Shown here: one piece after another, positions 7,331 through 31,699 of the stretch | How the letters are laid out: every line of letters starts with the position of its first letter | Position numbering within the stretch: the first letter of the stretch is position 1 | IMG/VR virus record: IMGVR_UViG_3300033145_002295 | Span: 1-31,699 of that record | Source of the DNA: a virus | Length of the DNA: 31,699 bases | Reading direction: 5' to 3' (one strand) | The notes under the pieces: generated by a model | Told to the model about the DNA's origin: nothing | The model's database searches: none | Seen by the model: only the letters and a program-made list of their open reading frames with translations | Position numbers and translations under genes: made by a program

Positions 7331-7881
7331 TATGTTTCATCCCTAATTGTGGTTGTTGTGTAAGTATTTATTTCTAAAGTATTCATATTTCCTCTTTCGG
7401 TTCCCCAAGTTCCATTAATTATGATTTTGAGACTTCGATCATTTCTATAAATTCCCGTTCCATATCTAATGTGAATAAATCTATTAATAAGAAATGATCC
7501 TCCTTTTTGAAATAAAAGAAGATTGCTCTTAGATTTACTATTTGTCTTTATTGTAAACCAATAAGTTCCTGAATCCAAATTTAATCCATTTAGTGCGAAA
7601 GTGTATCCAGTTGGAGGAATATCTTCGTCATTAATCCACGAAGACTCATCAATAACGGACTGGGTCAAATCTAATGCGCTATCTTTTCCAATTCCTGCTC
7701 TAACTTCACATTTCAGCTTAACATCTCGCAAAGGATCTTGGTTTGTAGAATCAAATTCAACCGTTACTGAATCTAAAATAAAAGATTTTTCAAAAAAGAA
7801 AGATTGATTTACAGATTCCTCATCTATTATTCCAAATCCAACTGTATCATTATGGTTTAGTTGTGATTTTAAAATTGCCAT
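7330..7881 (-). CDS. Jelly-roll-like tail surface protein
   Basis: 183 residues with AAAGGA before ATG. The sequence has the look of a jelly-roll or carbohydrate-binding-module-like beta sandwich: SFILDSVTVEFDST, DVKLKCEVRAG, GLNLDSGTYWFTIKT and LKIIINGTWG. 'LxxGtYWFxI' is typical of surface-exposed sandwich domains. A short stretch (NQDPLRDVKLKCEV) resembles WNPLRNEIQLDVEI in the next gene upstream, so the two may be related. Possible receptor or glycan contact; that is an inference from fold style only. Confidence 0.65.
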   Translation of the reverse strand: MAILKSQLNHNDTVGFGIIDEESVNQSFFFEKSFILDSVTVEFDSTNQDPLRDVKLKCEVRAGIGKDSALDLTQSVIDESSWINDEDIPPTGYTFALNGLNLDSGTYWFTIKTNSKSKSNLLLFQKGGSFLINRFIHIRYGTGIYRNDRSLKIIINGTWGTERGNMNTLEINTYTTTTIRDET

Positions 7882-7892
7882 ACTAATTTCCT

Positions 7893-8837
7893 TTAAGGCG
7901 ATAATGAAGAAGAACTGCTACTACTTGATTCAGATGAAGAACTCATAGAAGATGAACTTGACGAAGAACTTGCTGTAGTAAAAATTAAACTTCCTGCTAA
8001 ATTTTCTTGACCACGAAAAATTCCTTCTAAAAAACAAGAAACTAAAACATTTGTTCCAGATGCGACAGAAATTTTTGTATTAAAATATCCAGTATCTTTA
8101 TCTGAGTTTGTTCTTCCATAAATAGTTGTTCCATCTAAAGATGAAATGATTATAATGCATTGCTTTCTTACAATATGTCCTCTCCAATCTTTAACATATC
8201 CCCATATCATACTTGAAGCCGTAATTTCTACATCTAATTGAATTTCGTTTCTTAGAGGATTCCATAATTCAGAATCTAAAATAGTGCTTATTCTATGAGC
8301 TTTATGGGTTTCTGTATCTAGGTAGATATCAATTTCGTGATGCTGAGCTGAACTAGAACTTGAAGAAGACCTAGAACTCGATGAAGAAGATTTCGATGAC
8401 GAAGATTTCGATGACGAAGAACTAGACCTAGAACTCGATGACGAAGATTTCGATAACGAAGAACTAGAAGAACTAGATTGAGATTCATAGAATTCTATAT
8501 CAGTTACATTCCCGTCATTTTTGAGATACACATAAACCCAATATATATCATTAGCCCCAAACGAAAGATCCACTTCTTCTAACGAAACATAAGTATAATC
8601 GCTACCAATGGTTGCCTCTTCAGTATCAAGTATTACCAGATTAGCAGTCCCAAATCCAACCCCATCTCCAGAATGAGTAACTCTTATTTTAGTTGGTCTA
8701 TACCCATCATCCCAGGATCCAATAGGAGGATATAAATCTAATACTTCAACAGAAGTTTCCCAATGATCTGTGACCCAAGATCCAGTTTGAACAGTCCATT
8801 CAGTATTATCAAAATGTGAAACCCATGCCCATCCCAT
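7893..8837 (-). CDS. Tail surface protein with two poly-serine linkers
   Basis: 314 residues; ATG follows the upstream TAA directly, with AAGGGGAT as ribosome site. Residues 1-117 are an aromatic beta domain (WAWVSHFDNTEWTVQTGSWV ... DIYWVYVYLKN) resembling jelly-roll domains. Residues about 118-163 are almost pure serine with scattered K and R. Residues about 170-285 hold a second beta domain with GYVKDWRGHIVRKQCIIII, shared with the 6398-7330 protein. The last 25 residues are again poly-serine, with single M, E and L, ending LSP. Poly-serine runs act as flexible, often modified linkers in surface proteins. The C-terminal run has nothing after it, so it is a free tail. Confidence 0.75.
   Translation of the reverse strand: MGWAWVSHFDNTEWTVQTGSWVTDHWETSVEVLDLYPPIGSWDDGYRPTKIRVTHSGDGVGFGTANLVILDTEEATIGSDYTYVSLEEVDLSFGANDIYWVYVYLKNDGNVTDIEFYESQSSSSSSSLSKSSSSSSRSSSSSSKSSSSKSSSSSSRSSSSSSSAQHHEIDIYLDTETHKAHRISTILDSELWNPLRNEIQLDVEITASSMIWGYVKDWRGHIVRKQCIIIISSLDGTTIYGRTNSDKDTGYFNTKISVASGTNVLVSCFLEGIFRGQENLAGSLIFTTASSSSSSSSMSSSSESSSSSSSSLSP
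8340..8483. repeat. Serine-coding minisatellite
   Basis: A 15-base unit, gatttcgatgacgaa on the plus strand, is present at 8389-8403 and again at 8404-8418, with a one-base variant at 8446-8460. Flanking blocks such as ctagaactcgatgacgaa and gaactagacctagaa repeat around them. It encodes the central poly-serine linker of the 7893-8837 gene and would be prone to length change by slippage. Confidence 0.85.
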
Positions 8838-9233
8838 TTAAGATATCCCCTTTTTCCAACCAGAAGTGGGATTCCTCCCCATTCCTTCCTTCCCAAAAGG
8901 AAATTGCCTCACAGTCATATCTCCAATTCTATGTTTTCCTTTATCTCTAGAAAGAAGAGTAACCCTATATGAAGTAACTAAATTCTTTTTACACCCCATA
9001 GTAAATAAATGAATTATCGTTAACTTCTTTTCTCCAACTAAAGGCTTAATTGCTCCTATGAAGAAATTATATTTTTCATAATTTGAAAGGACTATTCTAT
9101 CATCATATGGTAAAATTAACTCAAAAGATTTTATCCCTAAGTCTGGACATTTAGTCCATTTTGGAAATTGAATACTTCCTCCTAAAAACTCTTCTCCATT
9201 CTGAAAGCTAACTCTATAAATCTGTTCTTCCAT
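8838..9233 (-). CDS. Hypothetical tail protein
   Basis: 131 residues with AAGGAG before ATG. I do not recognise the family. Two beta-like stretches (SFELILPYDDRIVL, LTIIHLFTMG) are followed by a basic, glycine-containing tail (KGKHRIGD, GKEGMGRNPTSGWKKG). It has two cysteines and no signal or membrane segment. Its stop is directly followed by the start of the poly-serine protein, so the two are co-translated. Position points to a small tail or tail-tip component. Confidence 0.6.
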   Translation of the reverse strand: MEEQIYRVSFQNGEEFLGGSIQFPKWTKCPDLGIKSFELILPYDDRIVLSNYEKYNFFIGAIKPLVGEKKLTIIHLFTMGCKKNLVTSYRVTLLSRDKGKHRIGDMTVRQFPFGKEGMGRNPTSGWKKGIS

Positions 9234-9254
9234 GTTATTCTCCTTTTTAATAGA

Positions 9255-9893
9255 TTAGGCGAAAGTCATGTATATTGCCAACACAGGGTTAGAAGCAAAG
9301 GGTCCAGCAGAACTAGGAACTAGTAATCTCATGTTCCAATATACCATTTGTGGAGCAATAATGGCTCCCGTACTCAGAGCAATAGAATTAGAATCACCGT
9401 CTCCTGCAAGAGGTGTACCCGCCCACCCTACTCCGGGAGCTCCATCTGTAGTCTTAACTGCCCTCAGCATAGAGTTTGCAGGAACACCTGCACCTAAAAC
9501 TTCTAGATTATAAGAATCATGAGAAGTAGAGTCCCAAGCTTGGAGAATTGGAGTTGATGCAGTCGTTCCATCTATATATGCCCCAAATGCGTACCGATAA
9601 TTTCCACCTCCTCCTTGATCTGCATCAGATCCTGCTAACCAAACTCTATCCCATTTAGATTCACTATAATCATTAATGAATTGCTTAGGAACTTCTTGGT
9701 TTCCGGATTCAGGAATTATAAAAACATCCTTTGAAGAATTAGAATCTTGATCATTTGTTCCTGATCCAAGAAATCCAATCTTATCATTGATTGGATCAAA
9801 TAATTCCCAATCAGCATCTCCTGATGCTCCTCCTGTATTAACTGTATCGTTTTGACTACTATTCCATAAAACGGTTAGGTTCGGGGCAGACAT
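9255..9893 (-). CDS. Glycine/asparagine-rich tail structural protein
   Basis: 212 residues with AGAAGGAGA before ATG. The composition (G, S, N, D, A rich, few charges, no cysteine) and alternating pattern suggest a beta-rich virion protein. Visible segments are WDRVWLAGSDADQGGGGNYR, YAFGAYIDGTTAS, and a C-terminal strand MVYWNMRLLVPSS ... NPVLAIYMTFA. No family recognised. It is the first gene after the homing endonuclease and was probably adjacent to the 10718-11701 gene or its small follower before insertion. Confidence 0.65.
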   Translation of the reverse strand: MSAPNLTVLWNSSQNDTVNTGGASGDADWELFDPINDKIGFLGSGTNDQDSNSSKDVFIIPESGNQEVPKQFINDYSESKWDRVWLAGSDADQGGGGNYRYAFGAYIDGTTASTPILQAWDSTSHDSYNLEVLGAGVPANSMLRAVKTTDGAPGVGWAGTPLAGDGDSNSIALSTGAIIAPQMVYWNMRLLVPSSAGPFASNPVLAIYMTFA

Positions 9894-9917
9894 TTTATTT
9901 CTCCTTCTTTTTTCTGG

Positions 9918-10589
9918 TTAAATATGCGTCCAAGAATATCTATAAACAACTCTACTCACTGTGCTTTTAGAAACATTAAAAATTTTTATTAGATCTATCC
10001 TTTTCTTTCCTTTTAAAAAAAGTTTTCTCATTTTTAAAACATCTTTTTCGGTTAATTTAGAAGAGTTATTCCCTTCCCCTTTTCTTTTTTCAGAAAAATG
10101 TTTTCTATATTCAGGATTTTTCCAAAGTTCCCTAAATTGCTTTTTTGCTTTCTTGCTCATTTCTTTTCTATACTTTTCGCTTTTCCAATTTTTTAAATTC
10201 ATTTCTCTCATTCTTTTTCTAATCAAAGGAGAATTCTTTCCTCCCTTTCCATCTGATTTATTTAATAAAGGACCCTTTTTGAGGTCTTGTCTTCCGATTC
10301 CTATGATTAACTTTTCTTCCAAAGAAAAAGCCTGTTCTTTTATTAAATTTTTTCTAAGAACTTTAACTTTTATAAAATTTCCTTGTTTTCTCATTTTAAG
10401 AATTCTTTGCCCCGTTTTTCCATCCCTTTTTCTAGCTTTTTTATACCATAAATATCTTTTTCCTTTTCCTGTTCCTATGTAAAAAGGTTCAAATTCAGGA
10501 TGATAAATTCCTTCTTTAATTTTATAATTATATTTTCCAGATCTCCTAGAATCCAAATAAGCATAAACATGATATTTTTTCTCTTCCAT
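9918..10589 (-). CDS. GIY-YIG homing endonuclease
   Basis: 223 residues with AGGAGA before ATG. Residues 7-11 (HVYAY) and 36-45 (FYIGTGKGKR) are the GIY and YIG elements. Glutamates 91-92 (LEEKLI) fit the catalytic acid; IGRQDLKKGPLLN (98-110) and DGKGG (113-117) complete the phage-type nuclease domain. Two W-x-x-x-x-Y-R units (NWKSEKYR about 134-141, LWKNPEYR about 155-162) resemble NUMOD DNA-contact repeats. The C-terminus (178-214: SKLTEKDVLKMRKLF ... IKIFNVSKSTVSRVV) is a helix-turn-helix. Such enzymes cut allelic genomes lacking the gene and spread by repair. It is strongly lysine-rich, unlike the structural genes beside it. It interrupts the tail operon as a free-standing gene, not inside a recognisable intron. 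Confidence 0.93.
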   Translation of the reverse strand: MEEKKYHVYAYLDSRRSGKYNYKIKEGIYHPEFEPFYIGTGKGKRYLWYKKARKRDGKTGQRILKMRKQGNFIKVKVLRKNLIKEQAFSLEEKLIIGIGRQDLKKGPLLNKSDGKGGKNSPLIRKRMREMNLKNWKSEKYRKEMSKKAKKQFRELWKNPEYRKHFSEKRKGEGNNSSKLTEKDVLKMRKLFLKGKKRIDLIKIFNVSKSTVSRVVYRYSWTHI

Positions 10590-10717
10590 GATGATCTCCT
10601 CTGTAGATCCCCCTGAAATGCAGATTGTGGCAGGAGAGACAGAGGTTCTCTCTTTTCGGGTCTAGATTCCCTAGCCACAAAAACTTTTAAACTCAAATCT
10701 TTAATAATTACAGTCAC
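10475..10717 (-). pseudogene. Short gene or 5' gene remnant displaced by the homing endonuclease
   Basis: A GTG one base after the TAA of the upstream gene opens an 80-codon frame. Its first 37 codons read as a plausible protein (MTVIIKDLSLKVFVARESRP, then a segment ending LLPQSAFQGD), with coding-like base use. The remaining codons run through the start and N-terminal coding of the endonuclease in another frame and look non-coding. The simplest reading is a small tail gene whose 3' part was replaced when the endonuclease entered; no matching 3' remnant is visible in the 24 bases after the endonuclease. It could also be a genuine short overlapping gene. Confidence 0.4.
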
Positions 10718-11701
10718 TTATGAACCTTCTGCATAAAATTTCGTCTTCATGACATTATTTGCTTTAGAACCTGTTAAAACAGGAACAATTTCTTTAATCC
10801 ATACACTTTTAGATGAATGGTGAGTGGAAAAAGTAATAGTTTCTCCAAGAACCCATACGCCCGAAAACCCTGCTGCTCTTAAGATAAAGTAATAATCTCC
10901 AGTTCCAACATTTGTATTAATGGGAGAAAAATCTCCCCCTGTAGTTCCTGATCCAATTGCTCCAGAATTTGTTCCAGAAACAGAAAACGCTACAGCACTT
11001 GAAAAAGTTAGAGTCCAAGTATCTTCTACAGTTCCAACATTATTTGTTTCTATTGGATAATTAGCTTCATCATAAGTTCCCAATACAGATGTTTCTGTCC
11101 ATGAATCAGAAGAAGCAACTAAACTCCCTTGATCAATAACTCCCATGACTAAAGAATTCTGACTAGCAGGATAAGTTCCTCTAACTGGAGTTGTAACTAC
11201 TATCGTTACCGTATTTCCTACCCAAGAAATTCCTCCTGGATTTTCAATTGTTAAAAATTCTTCTCCACCACTATTGTCTGTAATTCTGATAAGAGATCCA
11301 TTGTAAACTCCATCACTTGTATCAAACAAAGCTTCAAAAGTGGTAGAATCAGCAGACAATGGAGCAGTCAAATATCCTGTTCCAAGCCAATTTGAATACC
11401 CTTCAGCATCTGACTGAACATCAGAATTAGTTCCTTCTTTTATTCGAAAATAATCTCCACCTGTTGATCTAGAAGAAATCCAAAATCGACTGTTCGCTGC
11501 TGTTTCTCCTGCCGAATTTTTATTTCTCATAAAGAATTTCCTATACTTAGTCGCCCCTGCTGTACGTTCAGCCTGAGTAATATTATTGAACATATTATTG
11601 AGGACATTCGAAGTGACTTGATTATAAGACATCCTTCCGCCATTATTTGCATTTGAACCAACAACAATCGACTTAATAAGGATTAGATCTGTATTGTCCA
11701 T
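10718..11701 (-). CDS. Tail structural protein with Ig-like domain
   Basis: 327 residues with a strong GAGGAGGGAG site. The N-terminal part (GSNANNGGRMS, NVLNNMFNNITQAERTAGAT, YRKFFMRNKNSAGE) is the type of sequence found in a conserved tail protein of Mu-like and related phages whose exact role I cannot name. The middle contains LIRITDNSGGEEF and a long beta region. Residues about 225-300 are an Ig-like domain (WTLTFSSAVAFSVSG ... DYYFILRAAGFSGVWVLGET) of the kind also inserted in the connector and possibly in the tail tube protein. The C-terminus SVWIKEIVPVLTGSKANN returns to the first domain. Probably on the tail tip or tail surface. Confidence 0.7.
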   Translation of the reverse strand: MDNTDLILIKSIVVGSNANNGGRMSYNQVTSNVLNNMFNNITQAERTAGATKYRKFFMRNKNSAGETAANSRFWISSRSTGGDYFRIKEGTNSDVQSDAEGYSNWLGTGYLTAPLSADSTTFEALFDTSDGVYNGSLIRITDNSGGEEFLTIENPGGISWVGNTVTIVVTTPVRGTYPASQNSLVMGVIDQGSLVASSDSWTETSVLGTYDEANYPIETNNVGTVEDTWTLTFSSAVAFSVSGTNSGAIGSGTTGGDFSPINTNVGTGDYYFILRAAGFSGVWVLGETITFSTHHSSKSVWIKEIVPVLTGSKANNVMKTKFYAEGS

Positions 11702-11716
11702 CTTTTCTCCCTCCTC

Positions 11717-13210
11717 TTAAATTTCTTCTCCAGAAATTGTATAACTTACAACATTATTTTCGAATACCGGAACAAATTCAAGAATTAAAATTTTATAGGT
11801 TGGTATATAAGAATATATTGTTTCGCTGTCAATTGTTTCTGAGCCTAAGTCTTCATAAACAACTCTTGTTTGTTGGTTCTTCTCCGAAATCGGAATAAAA
11901 TCTATAAAGTCTACAATTTTATTAAGGGCGCATCTCTTCCTAATATCATCAAATTGAGTTTGAGTAATTCCCTTAATATTTATCATAAGCTTTCTTCCAT
12001 TGACGTCAATATCATTTATTCCTCCGCCAATAGTTCTTTTATATTCTCCATATTTTTTGAAACTATGAGAATACTGCTCATAAACATAATAAGGAACACT
12101 ATCGTAAATCAACCTTGTAGTTCTAAGGATGTGCTGAAGTGTTCCATATCTAGTCTTATTAAAAGCAAAGACAAAAGCTTTATCAAAAAACTTAGAATTA
12201 CAAATTGTAATACTCAGATTTCTCTCTTCATCATTTATATAATCATTATAAAACTCTAGAGTAGATTCAGTTGCTGAAAATTGACCATAAGTTGAAAATT
12301 GATTTAAAATAAGCCCTTCATGAGTATTATTTAAAAATTTTGCAGAACCAGGAGTCAGGGTGTTACTTATTTCAAAATAGAACTTTGCGATATCTATCCA
12401 ATTATTCATACTATAACAATTGATTTGATCCGTATTAACCTCTTGTTCATTATCAGCAACCAAAGAAGGACTCGCCATTTCTATAACCCGAGCATCTCTT
12501 CCTCTTAAGTTAAAAGAAGCTTCTATTCCTTCTGATGGTCTTGCATTAAACACAAAATCTGAAAGCTGAATTCCATTAAAACAAAAATAATCTCCATCTC
12601 TATAAATTAAACAAGTTAAACTTGTCGGCAAAACATAAGAAAAACCATTTCTATAACGAGAAATTATATCTAAAGTATTACCTCCTGAAATAACTACCCC
12701 ATACACAAGGGCGTTTTTTGTATGTAAGACCGCTGTAGTGCCTTCTGAGTGCCTGTCTGAACTTATTACACTGCCATTATTAATTGTATTTACATTAATG
12801 TATTCGTTATCTATAATAATCCCATCAATATTATCAAATTCTCCAGTCTTATATTCTGTGATTGTAAAAGTCGTCTGGGAAGAATCAATATTTTCTGATA
12901 ACATTCCTGTAATTATATTCCATTTTTCTACAGACCGAGCAAAAGCAAAATCAGTTAGTCGAATCTTTTGACCCATAATAGTTTTAAATAATATATTCCA
13001 AGCTTCATTTCCATAAGTAAAAGCAAATTTCGTTCTTCCATTAATAGTCTTTATCCCATTAACCCTTGATTGTCTAGTGGGAAAATTGAATTCTCTAATT
13101 TTTTGGTAATTAATGTTATCAATTATGTTTTCTTCCAATAAATCAATAACATAATCTTGAGAAGTAGAATCTTCTCCATATGAAGGTTCTTCTGAGAATG
13201 TAAGATACAT
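11717..13210 (-). CDS. Tube-like distal tail protein
   Basis: 497 residues; its ATG overlaps the tape-measure stop (TAATG), the classic position of a distal tail protein. The N-terminal part resembles a tail-tube fold: YQKIREFNFPTRQSR, KFAFTYGNEAWNILF. Residues about 100-170 are an inserted beta domain of a phage type: IDGIIIDNEYINV ... SDRHSEGTTAVLHTKNA, matching the 'IGxExixV ... RGxxGTxaaxHxxGaxV' pattern. The tube fold then returns (YVLPTSLTCLIYRDGDYFCF, EGIEASFNLRGRDARVIE). The second half (about 260-480) repeats the style with its own strands (KLMINIKGITQTQFDDI, KILILEFVPVFE). It probably forms the ring joining tube to hub. Confidence 0.7.
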   Translation of the reverse strand: MYLTFSEEPSYGEDSTSQDYVIDLLEENIIDNINYQKIREFNFPTRQSRVNGIKTINGRTKFAFTYGNEAWNILFKTIMGQKIRLTDFAFARSVEKWNIITGMLSENIDSSQTTFTITEYKTGEFDNIDGIIIDNEYINVNTINNGSVISSDRHSEGTTAVLHTKNALVYGVVISGGNTLDIISRYRNGFSYVLPTSLTCLIYRDGDYFCFNGIQLSDFVFNARPSEGIEASFNLRGRDARVIEMASPSLVADNEQEVNTDQINCYSMNNWIDIAKFYFEISNTLTPGSAKFLNNTHEGLILNQFSTYGQFSATESTLEFYNDYINDEERNLSITICNSKFFDKAFVFAFNKTRYGTLQHILRTTRLIYDSVPYYVYEQYSHSFKKYGEYKRTIGGGINDIDVNGRKLMINIKGITQTQFDDIRKRCALNKIVDFIDFIPISEKNQQTRVVYEDLGSETIDSETIYSYIPTYKILILEFVPVFENNVVSYTISGEEI

Positions 13211-16200
13211 TAATGAAGCCTCACTAACTTCTGTTCTTCTAGATCTTTCTTAAGTTCCTGAAGGACAGAAATCTCTCCTTGAATAGGATAAACTTTAGAT
13301 ACTCCTTCTTTTTCAACTCTAATTGTAAAACTTCCAACTTGTGGGATTTCTTTTTCAGAGATCATCTCTTCATTTACTTCACCACCTTCGGCAAAAGATT
13401 GAGCTCCTTGCTGCATAGATCTTTCGTATGCTGCCATCCCTTTTTGCGAAAGAACATAAGATCCTCTAGGTAAATAAGTTGGAATGTTATCTACTCCACC
13501 GGGACCAGTGAATGTAGAAATTGCTCTGGGAATAGCTCCAGTTGTGCTTCCTCCGTTGAGAGAATTTAAAATATTAAGGTTTCCCAAAACTTGATTAGGA
13601 GGAATATATCCTTCTCCTGCTGAAACTCTTGCAGAAATTAATCCCCCTGTTGCTTTAAAAACAGGAGATGGTCCTTTATAATTTGCAGATTCAGTTCCTA
13701 AAGAAGATGTATATTTTGAAGGATCATCTCCGGAAAGCTTTTCAAATCTCCATTTAATTACATATGTTGGATCATTAAAAATTGGATCTAAAAAATTATC
13801 TTCTATATATTTTCTAGCTTCTTCAGTTTTTACATTAACAAGAATACCATCTTTAGCTTTCTGAACAATAGCGTCATAAGCATTTTCGATTTTTTTAAGA
13901 CTTTCTAGGGCATTTTCTCTATTTTCTTTTTCTTTTTCAATTCTATCATCAATTGCTTGCTTAAGAGATTCATTTGCCGCTTTTTCTTTATCAAGTGCCC
14001 CTTTTACATCTTCTCGTAATCTAAGAAATTTTTCTTCAAGTATTAAAGCTGCTTCTTCCTTTTGAATTCTAGCTTCGAAAGCAGTAAGAATTCCAGCACT
14101 CTTCTCAAGTTTTATTCGTTCTAACTCTTTATCGTAAATTTCCTTAAGGATACCCTTTTCTGTACCAAGATTTTTAGTGATATCTTGTCTAATTTTATAG
14201 TTATCTTCTAGCCCTTTAAGAGTTTTATCATATGAATTTATTAGTTTCTCTTGTTCATTAATCTCTCTTCTAGTATTTCCAACTTCTTCACTTTTTATCC
14301 TTTGGATTTCTTGAATTTTATAAATAAGGTTTCCATATTCATACTGAAGATCTCTTTTATTTCGATACTCTTCTCTTGCTGCACTAGATGCTCTTTTTTC
14401 AACATCTTCAACAGCCTTTTGAACAACTACATAATTTTCCTGAGCAACTTTATATTCATCAGTTCCTCGTTTTGCTTTTCTTTTTTCTGCATCTGCTCTG
14501 GAAAGAGCCATTCTCAAATCTTCTTCAGTTCGAATAGCATCTTCTGTACGATCTCTCATTTCTTCAAGAGATCTGATTCCAGATCCAACTTCTTCTCTAG
14601 CTCTTTTCCTCGCCCTTTCTTCTCTTCCTTCTAAAATAGAAATCTTCTCATTTTGAGCTTTTATATCTTCTCTTACTTTTAAATATTCTTCTGATCCTCT
14701 TTTTGCTAATTTCATTTCACTTTTAAGTTTATACAGACTAGCTTGTGCTCCAAGAACACTTTTGTTTGCGCTGTCTATTTTTTTGCCATACTTCTCTGTT
14801 TCAGAAATAAATTCACTAAGAGTAGATAGAGTAGAACTAATTGATATTTCTAAAGCTCCATAATGAGATTTTTGAGCTCTAACCATAGAAAAATCAATTC
14901 CGATCATATCTTGTTGAAGTTCTTCTTGTCTCTTTTCCAGATTTACTATTGAATCCGAAAAGGCTTTCACTTTCTTAATCCCCTCCGAACCTAGCCTGTT
15001 TACATCTTTCCAAAGTTTAGAAAATCCTTTCCTGTCATCAATAGCCAAATTTTCTATTAAGTAAGTTAATTTTTCAATTTCTGCATTAAATGATAAAAGA
15101 TTAGATTCTGTAGAAAGTTTTTTAAATCCTTCAGCCACTTTGTAGCTTGCCGATTTTCCAGTTTCTCCAAGATCTTCAAAAACTTCTCTAGTTATTTTTA
15201 TTAAACTTTTAATTTCGTGCATTTTATTTATTTCTTTATAAAAGCCTTCTGAAAATTCTCGAGCTTTTTTTATTGCATTAGATAAATCTTTTTCAGCAGT
15301 AGTCTGTTCAACTGTTACTCCTGTAAGTTTGCTTCTTTGGACAAATTTTTGTTTAAGAGCTTCAATTTCTTTTTTATGTTCAATTAATCTTTTCTCTGCT
15401 ATCTTTAATTCTTTTTCTGTAGATAATATTAATAAATCTGTAAATTCTCTACCTTCTTTATTTGTTTTTTCTCTAATTCTTTCTAGAGCTTCTATCTCAT
15501 CTCTATAAAGTCCAACTTTATATGATAACTTTGCAAACTTATCCCCCACTTTTTCTAAATTTCTTTCTATTTCTCTCGTACCTCCTCGGAGAATACTGAT
15601 GAGATCAGCCGTTTGTTCATATAATTCTGCCATCCAAGAATCAGAAATGTCTCTCCTGATTAATTCTAAACCCTTTTCAATAGTTGTAAGGTTTTCTTTC
15701 CCCCATTTATTAATCTGTTCGAGAGTTTTTTCAACAATTCTTAATTCTTTAGATAATTCTCTTTCTTTTTGAATTTCTGCCAATTCCTTTTGAGATTCAA
15801 TCAATTCACTTGTTGCTTCTCTAACAGCCTTTATTTGATCCTCTTCACTTTTATATTCTTTGTTCAAAAGACCAGTTTCAATCATAAGTTTCCTAACAGT
15901 TGCTTGATTTTTCTTTGTTATCTCAGTTTCGTTTTCAAGAGATTTACTTAAAAGCTGAAGAGTATTAATATATCCTAACGTAGAACCCGTTGCTGCCTTC
16001 AATTCAGCATGTTGTTTTTTTAATCTATCTAAAGCTCCATCGAAAAATTTAATAATTTCAATAGCAACTAAAATTCCCAAAATAACGACAGCAGCTTTCA
16101 TTACAGCATTGAGACTGATCCATGCTGCCTTTACTCCATTAATTGCTCCGATTTGTTTCTTGGCAACATAATCATATTTTCCAGTTACTTGATTTAATTC

Positions 16201-25017: not shown

Positions 25018-25959
25018 TTAGTCATCCCCGGATGTTCCGGTTTTTACTCTCTTATACATATAAGCTGCATCTAAATTGGTAATCTTAGGAGAATAGACCT
25101 TATTCACCTTAATGAATTCACCTTCTCGGTCATCATCTCTCCACTTAACAACTTTAAACTTTTTAGACACAAAGGTTCTACCAAGAGTAAGATTATTCGA
25201 CGGATCAACAAAAGCCATTGCCACCCTGTATTTAACAATATACTCATAAGACGCAGTCTGACCCTCATCGTTCTCATTCCACAGCCCGTCAGCAAACAAT
25301 ACCTTCATATTTCTGAGGGTAGCAGGAAGAGCATTCCCTGTAATCATAGATGTAGTATGATACTTAAGAATCTCTCTAATAACAGGATCGGCCGCAATTG
25401 CTTCAGAAACCTCTGAAGTGAAAACTATTTTATTAGGACGTTTTCCTGTGGCTTTTGAAATAAGAACAATTGCATCAGAAAGATCACCCAAAATATCAGG
25501 ATCAGTACCGTCAATCCAAGCAGTGGCAGCGGTCAGGTTAGCATAATAAGCTCCACTTTCAAGACCTGAAGTTCCCAAAAGCAAAGCCCAAATGTCAATT
25601 TCTTCAGAAAGAAGAACTTTTTCTGTAAGAAAGTTTGTAACATCTACCTTAGGACGAACAGGGGCATCAGCATTCTGCATAGCCCTATCGGTTACGATAT
25701 CCTTAAGAGCTCTTTCGTAGGTGCTATATGTTCCCTCGTCGTATGACAGAGTCGCTTCCTCTGTGATGGCCCCATCTGCTTTCTTGGGCGCACCCTTATA
25801 AAACCCATCTTTTCTGAAAATACGATATTTGTCAGATTCTTTCTGGACTCCATATTCAGGCAGAAATTCTGATCCGACAAATTCATTGTTAGAGTAACGT
25901 ACTGCTAGATTAGTCAAAAATTTATCATCTCTAACATTTCCCTTTTGAACATTAAACAT
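25018..25959 (-). CDS. Major capsid protein
   Basis: 313 residues starting MFNVQKGN at ATG 25957-25959. An in-frame GTG three codons earlier overlaps the Shine-Dalgarno, whereas AGGAGG at 25968-25973 is 8 bases from this ATG. The sequence fits HK97-fold capsid proteins of the Mu-like group: an N-terminal arm, EGTYSTYERALKDIVTDRAM, a long helix-like LTEKVLLSEEIDIWALLLG, a P-domain-like GKRPNKIVFTSEVSEAIAAD, then KVLFADGLWNE and a final FKVVKWRDDDREGEFIKV. It sits between the decoration protein and the fibre and connector genes, after protease and scaffold, as expected. Confidence 0.88.
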   Translation of the reverse strand: MFNVQKGNVRDDKFLTNLAVRYSNNEFVGSEFLPEYGVQKESDKYRIFRKDGFYKGAPKKADGAITEEATLSYDEGTYSTYERALKDIVTDRAMQNADAPVRPKVDVTNFLTEKVLLSEEIDIWALLLGTSGLESGAYYANLTAATAWIDGTDPDILGDLSDAIVLISKATGKRPNKIVFTSEVSEAIAADPVIREILKYHTTSMITGNALPATLRNMKVLFADGLWNENDEGQTASYEYIVKYRVAMAFVDPSNNLTLGRTFVSKKFKVVKWRDDDREGEFIKVNKVYSPKITNLDAAYMYKRVKTGTSGDD

Positions 25960-25987
25960 TCGTACCACCTCCTTTTCTTTGATTAAA

Positions 25988-26036: not shown

Positions 26037-26516
26037 TTAAGTTACAAAAGTTAATCCGAGCCCTTTCATACAAACTGGAACAATATCTCCGTCATCTCCA
26101 GTTTTAAGAGCTATTCCAAGTAGTCCCCGAAGAGTACCTCCTCCGGTAGGAGTAACAGGTTTAATAAGAGCATTTTCTCCATCATCAGGACCAACAAGAT
26201 TTCCTCTTGTGACGGCTTCTGCACATTCACATTTTACAACAGGACCGCAAGAGACAGGAACCATATCTCCATCTACAGCATCAGCAAGAGCTACTCCGAG
26301 AGCAACAGTTGTCGTTGCACTATAATCATAAGGTTCCACTTCTCTATAATCAGTCCCAATTTGAACAACATCTCCCTCAAGAATAGAAAGTTTACCTTCC
26401 ATAGCCCCTTTACTTTCTCCCCCTCTGTCGTCACTCCCTTCACACAAAAAGTTTTGGATAAAATCATTAGGACTCCATCCGTAACTGTGTCCAGTTTCTT
26501 CAGTCGGTAATGCCAT
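26037..26516 (-). CDS. Head decoration protein (DUF2190-like)
   Basis: 159 residues from ATG 26514-26516 (MALPTEETGHSYGW). The upstream GTG overlaps the Shine-Dalgarno GGAGG, while this ATG is 8 bases from it, the same arrangement as the capsid gene. The repeated pattern EGDVVQIGTDYREV, TTVALGVALADAVDGDMVPV, RGNLVGPDDGENALIKP, LRGLLGIALKTGDDGDIVPV is the beta-tulip-like layout of DUF2190/decoration proteins. These bind the outside of the capsid lattice and stabilise it. Confidence 0.75.
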   Translation of the reverse strand: MALPTEETGHSYGWSPNDFIQNFLCEGSDDRGGESKGAMEGKLSILEGDVVQIGTDYREVEPYDYSATTTVALGVALADAVDGDMVPVSCGPVVKCECAEAVTRGNLVGPDDGENALIKPVTPTGGGTLRGLLGIALKTGDDGDIVPVCMKGLGLTFVT

Positions 26517-26570
26517 CTTGTTCACCTCCTTTTAAAATTTATAAAAACTTTTTAGTCTATTAAATTAAAA

Positions 26571-27314
26571 TTAGTCTTCTTTGATTTTTCCGTCCATTTG
26601 AAGTTCGACTAAAGCATCCCCAAAAGAAATTTTCTTTTCGGTTGCATATTTCTCAACTTCAGTAACAGACATTTCTTTTCCGCCACTTGCTGAAGTTATA
26701 GCCTCACTTTCTTCACTCTCCGAAAATCTGAATTCTTGAGGAATAGAATCCAGAAGATCATAAATAACGTCTGCAAGAGAAAGAGTTCTTTTAACAGGAT
26801 CTTCCCCTTCTTTCTTAACTTCGGAAAGCGTAATCGAAAACTTCTTTGTTTCTTCCAAAAACAAAATAGGCTCAATTATCTTAAGAGTAGACGGGAAAGC
26901 TCCCATCGTCTTAAAATCTCCAAGCTTTTTTTCCATTCCGGTTTTATACTCTCTAACAGCAAGGTCTTCATTGGATTTCATAAGAGTTTTAACTGAATCT
27001 CCAAGAGTATCTACCTTTCCAGAAAGTTCTTTTCCTCTCTTATTACTTTCTGCCAACTCTTTAGAGGTCTCTTCCAATTTCTTAGAAGTCTCTTCCAATT
27101 TCTTTTCCGTTTCAGTTAGACTCTTAGCATTTTCCCTTTTCTTTTTCTCTCCAACTTCGTTAAGAGTTTTAATATCAGTTTTAATTTCTTCCAACTGAAT
27201 TTGTAAATCCTTTAGCTCTTTCTGTGATTTTTCATCCTTTTCGTCTTTAAGAGCTGCCATTTGATCCTGTAACTTTTTTTGTTCTTTTTCCAAATCTTTC
27301 AATTTCTTCTCCAT
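26571..27314 (-). CDS. Nested scaffold protein (internal start in protease gene)
   Basis: Within the protease gene, GAGGAGGTG at about 27324-27333 precedes the in-frame ATG 27312-27314 (residue 226), giving a 247-residue protein MEKKLKDLEKEQKK... that is the coiled-coil part only. The in-frame GTG at 27324-27326 is an alternative. Nested scaffolds inside the protease frame are established in Mu (I/Z) and lambda (C/Nu3). The spacing to the ATG is long (11 bases), so the exact start is uncertain. Confidence 0.6.
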   Translation of the reverse strand: MEKKLKDLEKEQKKLQDQMAALKDEKDEKSQKELKDLQIQLEEIKTDIKTLNEVGEKKKRENAKSLTETEKKLEETSKKLEETSKELAESNKRGKELSGKVDTLGDSVKTLMKSNEDLAVREYKTGMEKKLGDFKTMGAFPSTLKIIEPILFLEETKKFSITLSEVKKEGEDPVKRTLSLADVIYDLLDSIPQEFRFSESEESEAITSASGGKEMSVTEVEKYATEKKISFGDALVELQMDGKIKED

Positions 27315-27989
27315 TTCAACATTCACCTCCTCTTCATTTTCTAAAATTTCTTCCAAGGTTACTATTTCTCCAGCTTCACTTAAAGAAACTGGCTTCATCC
27401 CTTTTATAAAAGGTCTATTCGTTAATCCTCCTCCTAAAAGAGCTGGCCCATAATTTATCTTTACTTCTTTTTCTATTGTTTCTCCGTTTTCATTCACCTC
27501 CTCTTCAAAAAGATATTCTGAATAATCATCTGTATATTCTGCAGAAAAATACTTGAATTCCTTTTTCTCAATAGATTTTCTCCCTTCTTCAGTAAGAAGA
27601 ACTGAAGCCATTAAACTTTTTCCTTCTTGAAAAAGCTTCTTAACCCATGCAGCAGCCCCCGCATCTGATCTGTGTTGAAAATCAAAAGCAATTTCTTCTT
27701 GAGGAATATCTTGATCAAAATTATGGATTAGTTTTTTAAAAAAAGCACCATTAAAGGTAAGAATTCCCCACCAAGGGTGACGAAATTTTCCTTCCTTTAA
27801 AATTTGAATATCAATTGGTTTATCTTTTCCTGCTAGTTCAAAAGATAACAGGGTAGATTCGGAGAGTGGAAAAGTAAAGCGATGAGAAATTTTGGATTGT
27901 TTTTTGCCTTTAGTTTCCATATGTTCCTCCGCTAATTTATTCAGACGCCTTTCTTTAATTGAATTAATAACTTTATCTGAAAAGTTCAT
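26571..27989 (-). CDS. Capsid maturation protease fused to scaffold (Mu gpI-like)
   Basis: 472 residues with AGAGAGA before ATG. Residues about 35-205 match Mu gpI-type proteases: GKFRHPWWGILTFN, FDFQHRSDAGAAAWV (102-116; the histidine lies in the family's conserved D-x-x-H-Q-like element), LLTEEGRKSI, YFSAEY (147-152), and LTNRPFIKGMKPV (189-201). From residue 226 a long charged coiled coil follows, with heptad-like repeats KKLEETS-KKLEETS-KELAES, ending with a helical segment (MSVTEVEKYATEKK). The protease cleaves the scaffold and usually itself during capsid maturation. An internal start probably yields the scaffold alone. Confidence 0.85.
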   Translation of the reverse strand: MNFSDKVINSIKERRLNKLAEEHMETKGKKQSKISHRFTFPLSESTLLSFELAGKDKPIDIQILKEGKFRHPWWGILTFNGAFFKKLIHNFDQDIPQEEIAFDFQHRSDAGAAAWVKKLFQEGKSLMASVLLTEEGRKSIEKKEFKYFSAEYTDDYSEYLFEEEVNENGETIEKEVKINYGPALLGGGLTNRPFIKGMKPVSLSEAGEIVTLEEILENEEEVNVEMEKKLKDLEKEQKKLQDQMAALKDEKDEKSQKELKDLQIQLEEIKTDIKTLNEVGEKKKRENAKSLTETEKKLEETSKKLEETSKELAESNKRGKELSGKVDTLGDSVKTLMKSNEDLAVREYKTGMEKKLGDFKTMGAFPSTLKIIEPILFLEETKKFSITLSEVKKEGEDPVKRTLSLADVIYDLLDSIPQEFRFSESEESEAITSASGGKEMSVTEVEKYATEKKISFGDALVELQMDGKIKED

Positions 27990-28001: not shown

Positions 28002-28700
28002 CTATTTAATTGTCATTGCATCAACGAATCCATATTTTCGTCTATTAATAATTTCATTTGGCACTCTTTTATACCCAGCTAATTTTATAATAATCTTCTT
28101 CCTATTTTGAGAATCAAATTTTTCCTTCAGTGGAATCTGTGCAAACAAAAGAATCAACCTTTGATCCAGATACGGAAGAAGTGCTTCCACCTCTCCACTA
28201 TTTTTATTTAATGGCTCAAGTTGTTCTTCTTGTAGCCTTAATAGATAATTGAAATAGGTTTCCTCTGTTGGATTTTTCATGTGACCGTAATAACCGCCCA
28301 TGAACTCATCAATCCCGTCTCCTGTAATAATTCTTTTTATTCCATTATGAGATAGGGTATTATAAAAATTTCTTACTATCTCATCCCCTGGAAAATCTCC
28401 TGATTTTCTTTCAATATATCCGTCTGGAATATTTGCTATGCAATCTATTCCAAAATGTCTTGCAATGAGGTTTGCGAAAATATAATCAGGATGATCTGTA
28501 TTTTTAGCAATGGTATAACACCTTACATCTTTTCCAAAAATTTGAACCATATAAGAAAGTAGTAATGACGAATCAATTCCTCCAGATAAAGATAAACAAT
28601 TACAATCCAAATCTTTGATAATCTTAATCATAGTCTCATCAATTTGAGTCAGCGTTATCTTAGTTCCGATTTGATTCCAGTTTTTAGGGTGTTTTATCAT
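28002..28700 (-). CDS. Stand-alone asparagine-synthetase-like ATP-pyrophosphatase
   Basis: 232 residues; ATG overlaps the upstream TGA (ATGA). It has the asparagine synthase C-terminal domain: SGGIDSS at 39-45 (ATP pyrophosphate loop), GDGIDEFMGG at 127-136 (equivalent of G-x-G-x-D-E in AsnB), EALLPYLDQRLI at 172-183 and NRRKYGF at 219-225. The N-terminal glutaminase domain with its catalytic Cys is absent. The length is far below AsnB (about 550), so it either uses ammonia or forms an amide or isopeptide with another nucleophile, as in lasso-peptide cyclases or sugar amidotransferases of this superfamily. Located between phage head genes and downstream of glycosyltransferase and radical SAM genes. 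Substrate unknown. Confidence 0.85.
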   Translation of the reverse strand: MIKHPKNWNQIGTKITLTQIDETMIKIIKDLDCNCLSLSGGIDSSLLLSYMVQIFGKDVRCYTIAKNTDHPDYIFANLIARHFGIDCIANIPDGYIERKSGDFPGDEIVRNFYNTLSHNGIKRIITGDGIDEFMGGYYGHMKNPTEETYFNYLLRLQEEQLEPLNKNSGEVEALLPYLDQRLILLFAQIPLKEKFDSQNRKKIIIKLAGYKRVPNEIINRRKYGFVDAMTIK

Positions 28701-29132
28701 TTAAGTTGCCTATTTGCACAAGGCACTGTTTCTTTAGCTTCCACAGCTTCCTCATCGCTCCAATAAACTTCTTGATCCTCGACCATTCCGATAACACAAT
28801 GTTTGAATTTATTATCCTTCGCTTTTATATGATCAATCAAATAAAGATTTCCAAGATGATCAACTAATGGACAATGATGAATAATTTCTTTTCCTGTCTT
28901 GGGGTCTTTATGAATATGATGAATTAAATATTCCCAATCTTCTAATCCCGACATATTCTTATGTGAAGCTTCAACTAACTTAACGAATTTCGTTAAATTT
29001 TCTAAGAAATTATCATCCAGTTTTCCAGATTTCTTCAAAGCTGCCGTACAAATCGCAAAAGCAGAACTCTTACTTTTTCCTTGCTTTACCAGCTTGGCAA
29101 CACATTTATCTAATATCTCAGGGATAGGTCAT
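28697..29132 (-). CDS. Phage head-region protein with a one-base-displaced start
   Basis: The frame encodes IPEILDKCVAKLVKQGKSKS, then SAFAICTAALKKSGKLDD, and ends with a His/Cys-rich segment (YLIHHIHKD, IIHHCPLVDHLGNLYLIDHI, KFKHC). The C-(x)n-S-A-x-A-I-C pattern near the N-terminus is common in phage proteins encoded near capsid genes. The open frame extends upstream to about 29128, far beyond the TTG at 29036-29038, which has no ribosome site. An AAGGAG and an ATG (29130-29132) sit exactly where a start is expected, but in the neighbouring phase (ATG ACC TAT CCC TGA). Deleting one T would give MTIPEILDK. So it has a frameshift, a non-AUG start (ATC), or a sequence error. His/Cys richness suggests metal binding. 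Confidence 0.7.
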
Positions 29133-29168
29133 CTCCTTCTTAAAGAACTCAGTTAATAGTCAGTGAAT

Positions 29169-29198
29169 AGTTTAGCATAAATTTTATTTTTTTGACAA
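29169..29198 (-). promoter_or_regulatory. Extended -10 promoter driving the head genes
   Basis: On the minus strand TTGTCA (29193-29198) and TAAACT (29169-29174) are separated by 18 bases, and TGC immediately precedes the -10 box (extended -10). It lies in a 164-base gene-free gap, 37 bases before the first ribosome site. It reads toward the 142-residue protein, the ATP-pyrophosphatase and the capsid genes. The rest of the gap (29199-29289) is very AT-rich with a short AAGAAGCTTCTT palindrome and no gene. Confidence 0.7.
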
Positions 29199-29289
29199 GA
29201 AAAAACTTTACAATCTGAAATGGTTTTTAGAAAGAAGAAGCTTCTTAAAAATATATTTCATCTAATAAATTTTTAAAATTTCTGTTTTC

Positions 29290-29625
29290 CTATCCTAATA
29301 TTTCCACTACCGTCATTGTAATCTCCCCTTCGTATTTAGAATAAACCGCAGGAGTTCCAGGAAGAAGTTTTGTAGTTATTACTTTAGCAGTTATTTTGTG
29401 GGAATCTCCATCTACTCCCCCTTTGATTCCAACAATTACAATTTTGCCATCACTACTGATTACTGATCCTGTAATAATGTCAGAAGTAGTATCAACTGTT
29501 CCTTTAGCTGATGTAACAACTTTCTCTTTGATTGTTTCATCAGAATCTAATTGTTTATCAAAATCAAATTCAATCGGAAACATTTCATAAGGCTGTTTGG
29601 AAAGATTCGAAGGTGTAGTTGCCAT
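29290..29625 (-). CDS. Small Ig-like virion protein
   Basis: 111 residues with AAAGGAGAA before ATG. After a short polar start it reads PIEFDFDKQLDSDETIKEKV, then DIITGSVISSDGKIVIVGIK, GGVDGDSHKITAKVITTKLL and a final EGEITMTVVEILG. This 'fD...L..deTI...v ... D.i..g..is ... v.v.i.GG.dG..hkItakv.T' layout is typical of small phage Ig-like head or tail proteins, often near portal and adaptor genes. It is the last gene before the promoter gap. Because it follows the radical SAM and glycosyltransferase genes, it is a candidate target of their chemistry, which is speculation. Confidence 0.65.
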   Translation of the reverse strand: MATTPSNLSKQPYEMFPIEFDFDKQLDSDETIKEKVVTSAKGTVDTTSDIITGSVISSDGKIVIVGIKGGVDGDSHKITAKVITTKLLPGTPAVYSKYEGEITMTVVEILG

Positions 29626-29643
29626 AATTTCGTTCTCCTTTTT

Positions 29644-30585
29644 TTAAAGAAAATTAGTATGTCTTAAAAATTTGTATTTTGATTGAGAGAATTTTTGAAA
29701 TCCTCTGGCATAATTCATATATCTACACTGGGGACACTTACTTATCTCAGGAATAATTGTTTTCCTTTTTTCCCAAAGTTCTTGAAAGGTATTTTCTTCT
29801 AAAGAACCTAAAGAAAACTCTTCTTTGCCTCTGTGTTGACAACAAAAATATACATTTGCATCTGCTCCAATAATCCCTATCAATCCAGCAATTATACAAG
29901 GAAGATTATCTTTTGCACTAAATCTTTCAGTTACTATAGAACTTTTTTCTTTTTCTAATAACCCTTCTGGAATTTCTGTTTTCTTTCCATTTATCCATGC
30001 TGGTTTAAATTGTATATAATCTACTCCAAGGTCTCCTGCTATCTTCTGAACCTCCTCAATCCCAGAAATATTATCAGGGCAAATTACATAACTTATGCCA
30101 ACATCTGTTGGTTTTGAATTAACGAGATCAAAAATATTTCTAATGACTTGGGTAAATAAGTTTTTTCCTTTTACTTTTTTATAAGAATCTTCATCATAAG
30201 CATCGAGGCTTATCCTTATAAATTTAAAAATTTCAGGTTTTTGAATTCTTTTCAAAAGAGTACCATTTGTTATTAAGCCTATTTCAAATCCCAAACTATA
30301 AGCAGAAGAAGCCATTTTAATAAAATCTTTATTCATCAAGGGTTCTCCTCCTCCCGTAAAGGTGATACTTTTTACTCCTAAATATTTTAGTTGTTTGATA
30401 ACCATTTCAAACAAGTTAAAATCCAAAAGATTTTTATGTTCTTTAATAAAACTTTTATACATGCAAAAAGAACAATCTAAATTACAAAGATTAGATGGAT
30501 CAATTTCACATGTTATCGGATAAACTGTTTTCCCTTCTATTATCTCATTTATTTTATCTATATGCTTTATAATTTTTCTTTCCAT
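29644..30585 (-). CDS. Radical SAM protein with SPASM-like C-terminus
   Basis: 313 residues. I start it at ATG 30583-30585 (MERKIIKHID), because the GGGGGAAA at the end of the upstream gene is a good ribosome site; an earlier ATG at 30642 lies inside that gene without one. CNLDCSFC (34-41) is the CxxxCxxC cluster-binding motif and GGGEP (78-82) the SAM-binding element; ITNGTLL and IRISLDAYD follow the family's beta strands. The C-terminal part has C230, C248, C249, C284 and C287 around GADANVYFCCQHRG, GSLEENTFQELWEKR and CPQCRY, a SPASM/twitch-type auxiliary cluster region. Enzymes of this class modify peptides, proteins or sugars. Substrate unknown. Confidence 0.9.
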   Translation of the reverse strand: MERKIIKHIDKINEIIEGKTVYPITCEIDPSNLCNLDCSFCMYKSFIKEHKNLLDFNLFEMVIKQLKYLGVKSITFTGGGEPLMNKDFIKMASSAYSLGFEIGLITNGTLLKRIQKPEIFKFIRISLDAYDEDSYKKVKGKNLFTQVIRNIFDLVNSKPTDVGISYVICPDNISGIEEVQKIAGDLGVDYIQFKPAWINGKKTEIPEGLLEKEKSSIVTERFSAKDNLPCIIAGLIGIIGADANVYFCCQHRGKEEFSLGSLEENTFQELWEKRKTIIPEISKCPQCRYMNYARGFQKFSQSKYKFLRHTNFL

Positions 30586-30586
30586 G

Positions 30587-31615
30587 CTATTTCCCCCACC
30601 ATGCTTCCAAATATTTATGATTTCCTGTTTTATGGTATTCAACTATCGTCCTTCTTTCATGTCCATTCATAAATAACATATTTGGACCATAATCAAAATA
30701 TTTCTTTTCTATTGGATCTAACTTCAAAACTCTCCTGATTTTATGTTCAGCATGTAAATGTCTTAATCCTAAAACTTTTCTCCAAGTCCCCTTTTTATCT
30801 GCTCCAGGAATAGGTTTAAAATGGGCATCTTCAGGATTTTCTACTAAAACAACTTTTGCTTTTTTCTTCGCAGCCCATTCTCCCATTCTTCTTTCTGCAT
30901 TTCCTATATTAAAAAAATAAAGCTTTTCAATATATTCTTCCCAAATTTCCATTAAAATCTTTGTTTTACAAAGAAAACTCATAGTTCCACAATATTTTTT
31001 TTCAGGAATATATTCACAAGAAATTAAATCATTTCCTCCAAGCATTTCTCTTATAATGTGAAAATTTTCTGGTTTTTCCAAAATACAATCTCCGTTTAGA
31101 TTAAAAATATATTCAAAACCTAAAGCTTGAAGCATTTTTAAACCAAAGAACATATTCCAAGCATGAGGAATTCCTACTCCAGATCCCCAAGTCTTAGGTT
31201 TAATCGAAATATAATCAGCAAGACAAAGAGCTTCCACGGAAGGCATTCTGGTTTCAATTTTTAAATTTTTAGAATAGAAAGGATTATCATAAGCTAAGAG
31301 AATAAAGAATCCTAATTTTTGACAGCTTTCCAAACAAGCTCTTAGCCATACTGAATGGTGATAATGAGTAGGTACAATAATCGCAATATTTTTTTGTAAT
31401 TTCTTAATTTTTTTTAAATCTTTCATATTATTATTAAAAACTTTTTCTTCTTCATCATACCAGCTCTGGTATTGCTCATCACTGTGAAAAATTTTATTTT
31501 TGCGATGTTTTAATATTCGATTCTCCAACCAATCTAATCTAAAATTATAAAGAGAACAAGGGTCAAATATCTTTCCAGAATTATCCCAATTTTTAATTAT
31601 TATTTTATTTGACAT
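30587..31615 (-). CDS. GT-A-type glycosyltransferase
   Basis: 342 residues with AAGGG before ATG. It has a nucleotide-sugar-binding start IAIIVPTHYHH (77-87), AYDN (108-111), GSGVGIPHAWN (144-154) and NLNGDCIL (172-179), which takes the place of the DxD metal motif of family-2-like transferases. The N-terminal 70 residues are charged and may be a separate helical region. The C-terminal part (281-310: VLGLRHLHAEHKIRR, LDPIEKKYFDYG) is matched by the end of the gene immediately upstream, so the two are tandem paralogs. Likely acceptors are a virion protein or a host or phage glycan. No membrane segment, so it acts in the cytoplasm. Confidence 0.8.
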   Translation of the reverse strand: MSNKIIIKNWDNSGKIFDPCSLYNFRLDWLENRILKHRKNKIFHSDEQYQSWYDEEEKVFNNNMKDLKKIKKLQKNIAIIVPTHYHHSVWLRACLESCQKLGFFILLAYDNPFYSKNLKIETRMPSVEALCLADYISIKPKTWGSGVGIPHAWNMFFGLKMLQALGFEYIFNLNGDCILEKPENFHIIREMLGGNDLISCEYIPEKKYCGTMSFLCKTKILMEIWEEYIEKLYFFNIGNAERRMGEWAAKKKAKVVLVENPEDAHFKPIPGADKKGTWRKVLGLRHLHAEHKIRRVLKLDPIEKKYFDYGPNMLFMNGHERRTIVEYHKTGNHKYLEAWWGK

Positions 31616-31699
31616 TCAATAAGCCCTTTTTCAAGTGGAAGCATATTTTGTCTTTTTCTCTGTAAATCTTCATAATGCAAATGCCTCATTCCAAGAATT
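31600..31699 (-). CDS. Second glycosyltransferase-like gene (3' end only)
   Basis: Only the last 32 codons are in the window, ending TAA 31600-31602 and overlapping the next gene by 16 bases. They read ILGMRHLHYEDLQRKRQNML, then PLEKGLIECQIK. The first part aligns with VLGLRHLHAEHKIRRVLKLD and PIEKKYFDY in the complete glycosyltransferase downstream, which indicates a tandem paralog. The rest of the gene lies beyond the window. Confidence 0.7.
   Translation of the reverse strand, partial: ILGMRHLHYEDLQRKRQNMLPLEKGLIECQIK

Follow-up and report, generated by a model that had tools for sequence, protein, structure and literature searches.

The 31,699-nucleotide stretch analyzed here (IMGVR_UViG_3300033145_002295; hereafter the window) is an entire viral contig of 31.7 kb and represents a fragment of a phage genome in which enzyme genes lie beside the genes for the head. 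An earlier note on this DNA had treated these enzymes, namely glycosyltransferases (GTs), a radical SAM protein (rSAM), and an asparagine-synthetase-like ATP-pyrophosphatase (ATPP), as one system. We find that the enzymes are real but form two independent modules: module A, comprising a GT and the rSAM, and module B, comprising the ATPP and a small gene before it, smp. The earlier note overlooked smp, which is the constant partner of ATPP and the most informative feature of the region. The best explanation, in which we place somewhat less than even confidence, is that the two modules adjoin but work independently, that module B would modify a virion protein through ATPP acting on or with smp, and that module A would act on a sugar. 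A virion protein as the target, as originally suggested, is plausible.

Two adjoining modules in a head operon

The enzyme genes are embedded in the head operon, as first described: all are encoded on the minus strand, immediately upstream of the genes for a Mu-I-type protease, a cement protein, and the major capsid protein. Both the radical SAM protein and the glutaminase-less asparagine-synthase domain were recovered by family searches. The features of the region are as follows.

31600..31699, minus strand: 3' remnant of what is probably a tandem paralogous glycosyltransferase, truncated where the contig stops (frame ILGMRHLHYEDLQRKRQNMLPLEKGLIE...)
30587..31615, minus strand: predicted GT-A-fold glycosyltransferase, 342 amino acids, NGDC motif (AlphaFold, Foldseek, 21 related viral loci)
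29644..30585, minus strand: radical SAM protein, 313 amino acids, with a twitch/SPASM-like C-terminus (PF04055, 3e-18; SPASM, PF13186, 8e-5)
29290..29625, minus strand: Gp77-type fiber-tail adaptor, a candidate glycan acceptor (PF23148, 4.9e-7)
28697..29125, minus strand: smp gene, PEILDKC head domain plus smp domain (28954-28700), start probably ATC
28002..28700, minus strand: ATPP, asparagine-synthetase-like ATP-pyrophosphatase without glutaminase, 232 amino acids (PF00733, 6e-22)
26571..27989, minus strand: Mu-I-type prohead protease/scaffold (PF10123, 7e-14)
26037..26525, minus strand: cement protein (PF09956, 4e-6)
25018..25968, minus strand: major capsid protein (phrog_1005, 2e-46)

Comparison with related contigs, given below by their L numbers, separates the two halves. 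Four sister phages with capsid proteins 81-85% identical to that of the window (L002, L003, L004, and L006) retain the order rSAM, (Gp77-type adaptor), protease, cement protein, major capsid protein and have no ATPP. The same GT family stands directly before rSAM in L003 and L004; in L002 a hexapeptide acyltransferase takes the place of the GT, and L006 is cut off there. A further relative, L018 (capsid protein 81% identical to that of the window), has the order smp, ATPP, protease, cement protein, major capsid protein, without rSAM, GT, or Gp77-type adaptor. Because sister phages carry GT-rSAM or rSAM without ATPP, or smp-ATPP without rSAM, the halves are independent, and the window is the only contig we found that carries both. 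None of 16 rSAM/GT contigs had an ATPP, in a set that had no positive control. Nor did we find a close rSAM in the ATPP contigs, where 19 searched contigs hold only distant radical SAM proteins elsewhere, and no rSAM was seen in the later ATPP loci L080-L084. The co-conservation of the enzyme genes that the earlier note proposed to look for in relatives is therefore found within each half but not between them.

On the basis of this distribution across contigs we reject a single cassette of GT, rSAM, and ATPP. That model, one pathway to a modified peptide or an unusual glycan, is consistent with the shared operon and strand of the genes in the window and with the sugar genes that adjoin ATPP in L024 and L073. 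We nevertheless consider it very improbable, given that besides the window no contig, sister phages included, has both a close rSAM and ATPP, and that neither a recognition domain for ribosomally synthesized and post-translationally modified peptides (RiPPs) nor a RiPP-specific family match above cut-off was found.

The smp-ATPP pair

We tentatively propose that smp-ATPP may be a mobile two-gene system: an amide-forming enzyme that depends on ATP would modify a dedicated tag domain carried on portal, protease-domain, and other head proteins. Scans from ATPP and from smp yielded ~23 distinct viral contigs after duplicates were merged (an initial full alignment of smp proved too varied to scan with). 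In these contigs an smp lies upstream of each phage ATPP, and smp never occurs without ATPP, the weakest smp calls being those in L029 and L080. The two genes usually overlap by one base or lie a few bases apart; in L014 an N4/N6 DNA methylase gene (7273-8004) sits between them, overlapping both by a few bases. The pair is not tied to one phage lineage: L019 and L021 share ATPPs that are 89% identical and smp domains that are 80% identical, while no similarity can be detected between their capsid proteins and their smp fusion partners differ. Moreover, smp and ATPP identities correlate over 21 pairs (r 0.57; 0/2000 permutations). Both observations argue that the genes travel together between phages. 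A scan of 50,697 annotated phage records, using four queries from ATPP and one from smp, gave no match.

The smp domain spans ~85-107 residues, with the motifs H-H, H-H-C-x3-D-H, and WSDEEA followed by a C-terminus reading KEW or PCANRQL. It has no match in Pfam or PHROG, and its AlphaFold model (pLDDT 75) has no match in the PDB by Foldseek or VIA-align. In the window the smp domain is 76% identical to that of L018, and in both it follows the PEILDKC domain, which forms the N-terminus of the prohead protease in L002-L006 and L045. The protease of the window lacks this N-terminal domain. In the window and L018, smp-ATPP separates the N-terminal domain from the body of a protease that is one gene in the sister phages. 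The smp gene was first listed as 29038-28697, but its true start is most likely upstream, at an ATC at 29125. The PEILDKC domain likewise begins with ATT in L002 (1990), L003 (2064), and L004 (7954), these non-ATG starts standing behind a strong ribosome-binding site, and with ATG in L006, L018, and L045. The non-ATG starts are probably non-standard starts of the infC type. An assembly frameshift at the smp start was considered and dropped in favor of a non-ATG start, as the corresponding codon in relatives is ATT or ATG.

The proteins to which smp is joined vary from phage to phage. It forms the C-terminus of a portal-position protein in L024 and L073 (the two proteins are 63% identical; with no Pfam match, "portal" here refers to size and position), follows a Portal_Mu plus Phage_Mu_F fusion in L019/L020, and follows a region that is nucleotidyltransferase-like by eye in L021, L066, and L075. 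In L083 it is preceded by a KKKFMDRC...AVCNSIW motif, which we take to be a prohead protease motif. In four jumbo-type contigs (L010, L011, L014, and L029) smp stands alone but shares an N-terminal leader with many small neighboring proteins (MISVSxLFE, MSKARxxLE, MKYREILE). The motif [LI]xE falls within the first 16 residues in 34 of 44 leaders from these contigs, where shuffling the leaders predicts ~13; in comparison loci it occurs in 186/1060. The smp leaders of L010, L011, and L029 contain [LI]xE, that of L014 lacks the exact motif, and smp has no leader in the window, L008, or L009. In T4, internal proteins are directed to the prohead by short propeptides that are cleaved after L/I-x-E (PMC9026906). 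The property common to these fusion partners and leaders would be the prohead interior.

Several loci are unusual in other respects. Dozens of small proteins with a short [LI]xE N-terminal leader occur across most of the L010 and L011 loci and in L029 and L076, which suggests that these phages have many internal proteins targeted to the capsid. Behind the ATPP of L021, a 1,048-amino-acid frame (8715-11861) joins methyltransferase, ATP-dependent DNA ligase, and XkdF-type protease domains, and the portal gene of L009 (1-2514) contains Hint and LAGLIDADG domains.

Leaders of this type also invite a different reading, in which the head would carry smp as an effector for injection into the host, with ATPP activating or maturing it, for instance against host defense or for take-over. 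T4 internal proteins bearing such leaders are injected (PMC9026906), smp is fused with MuF and nucleotidyltransferase-like parts, and not all members of a phage group carry the pair. The portal fusion, however, favors a part that stays in the virion, and smp has no known effector fold; we regard an effector as improbable.

Returning to the proposal that smp is modified by ATPP, we considered what chemistry the enzyme could perform. A profile of the ATPP family matches CarA (1e-9), human AsnS (3e-9), and E. coli AsnB (4e-8) over almost its full length, and the PP-loop, the DGxDE block, and RxK are invariant in 16 members. The protein begins ~38 residues before the PP-loop and matches only the synthetase domain, without reaching the AsnB equivalog cut-off. 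It does not carry the N-terminal Ntn glutaminase that AsnB proper has in the same protein. In the DGxDE block an Asp occupies the position of a Glu in AsnB and of a Tyr in CarA (TGYGSD), which we take to be the Tyr of the Tyr-Glu catalytic dyad; ATPP thus lacks the dyad Tyr that marks β-lactam and carbapenam synthetases. Common to the family of AsnB and CarA is the adenylation of a carboxylate followed by amide formation. Since ATPP has no glutaminase domain, the amine would be either ammonia in free form or one borne by a protein or sugar. Immediately behind ATPP, L024 and L073 have sugar-nucleotide genes (DegT aminotransferase, NAD epimerases, GDP-mannose dehydratase, C-methyltransferase, and GT2), and by eye L027 and L082 have similar genes downstream of their capsid genes. 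It is therefore possible that ATPP has an amino sugar or a uronic acid as its partner. By eye, L082 also has a UDP-GlcNAc-2-epimerase-like gene among its terminase genes (645-1721), in addition to the sugar-type run after its capsid gene (9558-13923). Outside phages, a species-genome scan with ATPP returned only generic Asn-synthetase-type proteins at 24-31% identity, its patterns deriving solely from the DEFMGGY subgroup, and on plasmids the matches listed were generic asparagine synthases at 22-27%.

Together, these features suggest the following mechanism. ATPP would bind ATP through its PP-loop and adenylate a carboxylate, which an amine would then attack, as in asparagine synthetase and carbapenam synthetase. 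The smp domain would be the dedicated partner of ATPP, most likely its substrate or an acceptor that presents the substrate. Being fused to a head-interior protein or carrying the leader of one, smp would enter the prohead and end up modified inside the head. Several observations weigh against this sequence of events. Some smp proteins stand alone without a recognizable leader (L008, L009, L023, and L074), and fusion to the upstream head gene may partly reflect gene order, given the pair's invariable position behind a portal or protease gene. Cellular members of the DEFMCGY type may have been missed, as the scan patterns came from one subgroup only. Finally, smp is of no known fold, and the core with its many His and Cys residues might serve in catalysis instead of being a substrate.

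That last point leads to an alternative in which smp would serve ATPP as a subunit, either catalytic or regulatory, and the two together would amidate a metabolite, a sugar, or a different head protein. The HH..HHC..DH site of smp would then supply ammonia or another nucleophile, or bind a metal, in place of the missing glutaminase. In favor of it are the constant pairing with overlapping genes, the conserved His/Cys/Asp cluster, which resembles an active or metal site, the lack of a glutaminase in ATPP, and the sugar-nucleotide genes directly after ATPP in L024 and L073. However, a subunit role leaves the fusions of smp to portals and protease domains and its capsid-targeting-type leaders unexplained, and such fusions or leaders would draw the subunit away from a cytoplasmic enzyme. 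We judge this alternative rather unlikely.

Glycosyltransferase and radical SAM protein of module A

Of the two tandem GTs originally reported, one is complete (342 amino acids) and the other survives only as a tail of ~32 residues at the contig end (31699-31600, ILGMRHLHYEDLQ...), which bears the family motif G-[LF]-R-H-[LI]-H. The complete GT has no sequence family match. Its AlphaFold model (pLDDT 82.5) resembles GT-A-type nucleotide-sugar enzymes with a Foldseek probability of 1.00 and E values of 3e-6 to 3e-5 (GT6, GT2, and other nucleotide-sugar enzymes), at a TM of 0.3-0.4 of the query. At these TM values the model indicates a GT-A fold rather than any one family. Used alone as a scan query, the window GT returned no loci; an alignment of the family returned 21 related viral loci. 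The family is large in viral contigs, usually as tandem paralogues accompanied by methyltransferase and aminotransferase-like genes. One GT gene, at 1532-5449 of L004, contains intein-splicing and LAGLIDADG domains.

The rSAM gene starts at an ATG at 30585, the listed TTG start at 30642 falling inside the upstream gene. The cysteines of its CX3CX2C motif (Cys34, Cys38, and Cys41) are invariant in the alignment. Although PF13186 passes its cut-off, the C-terminus has five conserved cysteines (C230, C248, C249, C284, and C287) compared with seven in full SPASM proteins, which have two auxiliary clusters, and we therefore describe it as twitch-like. Between rSAM and module B lies a gene whose product had been called Ig-like but instead matches the Gp77-type fiber-tail adaptor of Pfam; the adaptor is conserved in L002, L003, L004, and L045.

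At 11 of the 12 assessable loci, rSAM lies near a GT or other sugar genes (the window, L003, L004, L005, L007, L032, L034, L035, L036, L038, and the phage record MW202801, with the GTs of L036 and L038 judged partly by eye); the twelfth is L002, with its acyltransferase. Based on this association, module A is probably a phage glycan cassette in the structural region, and rSAM would have a role in sugar chemistry. The module could build or edit a sugar that is placed on a virion protein, with the neighboring Gp77-type adaptor as a plausible acceptor, or one that serves a phage-directed glycan, possibly on the host surface.

Other readings of the enzymes were examined and rejected. Among queuosine/7-deazaguanine families only weak matches were found (QueC-like at 0.18, QueE-like at 1e-4), ranking below other families. 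Within the window, moreover, neither queuosine nor a complete capsule pathway was matched, two of the known pathways that the earlier note had named. A RiPP reading was set aside because no recognition domain was found and all NCBIfam maturase matches fell far below cut-off, although a small precursor of a new type is still conceivable.

Long poly-serine stretches occur in structural or tail proteins of the window (7893-8837), L004 (1-1448), L006 (4141-4860), and L055 (8794-12801); in the window and related phages these are possible glycosylation sites. Within the tail genes of the window, the translation of 9918-10589 has the appearance of a GIY-YIG homing endonuclease by eye.

Significance and comparison with known systems

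To our knowledge, hardly any enzymes other than prohead proteases and glycosyltransferases are known to act chemically on the head proteins of phages, and the literature we searched contained no report of a phage head module with an Asn-synthetase-like enzyme. If the proposal for module B is true, it would add a new enzyme-substrate system for the virion, in which AsnB-like enzymes are tied to one small domain in unrelated phages, and an enzymatic chemical modification of the virus-head interior of a kind without earlier description. The smp-ATPP pair is the part worth following up: its pairing, fusions, and leaders are facts of sequence, its function is a testable proposal that involves only two small genes, and it provides an anchor for naming many unknown head genes.

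Module A has a precedent in mycobacteriophages, in which phage-encoded glycosylation of virions is known (Freeman et al. 2023, as cited in PMC12619734). Phage GTs lie near structural genes there too and virion proteins are the acceptors, whereas the GT of module A, with a putative glycan product, belongs to another family and is paired with rSAM. A closer parallel in gene arrangement is Caudoviricetes sp. ctQWt234 (MW202801), in which an rSAM with 28% identity lies just after the capsid gene and is followed by glycosyltransferase, PhyH-like, methyltransferase, NodB-like, and glycosyltransferase genes. This is a larger sugar cassette than that of the window, and no ATPP occurs in the phage collection.

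For module B, AsnB, CarA, and β-lactam synthetase (PF00733) are alike in that the SGGxDSS PP-loop, DGxDE, and RxK align across nearly the whole of ATPP; ATPP differs in lacking an N-terminal glutaminase-type domain and in having smp as its constant partner gene, and its identity to the cellular proteins found reaches no more than 25-31%. The capsid-targeting sequences of T4 (PMC9026906) resemble the short L/I-x-E leaders found on many small proteins, including the smp of L010, L011, and L029, whereas the smp of the window has the PEILDKC head domain in place of a short leader.

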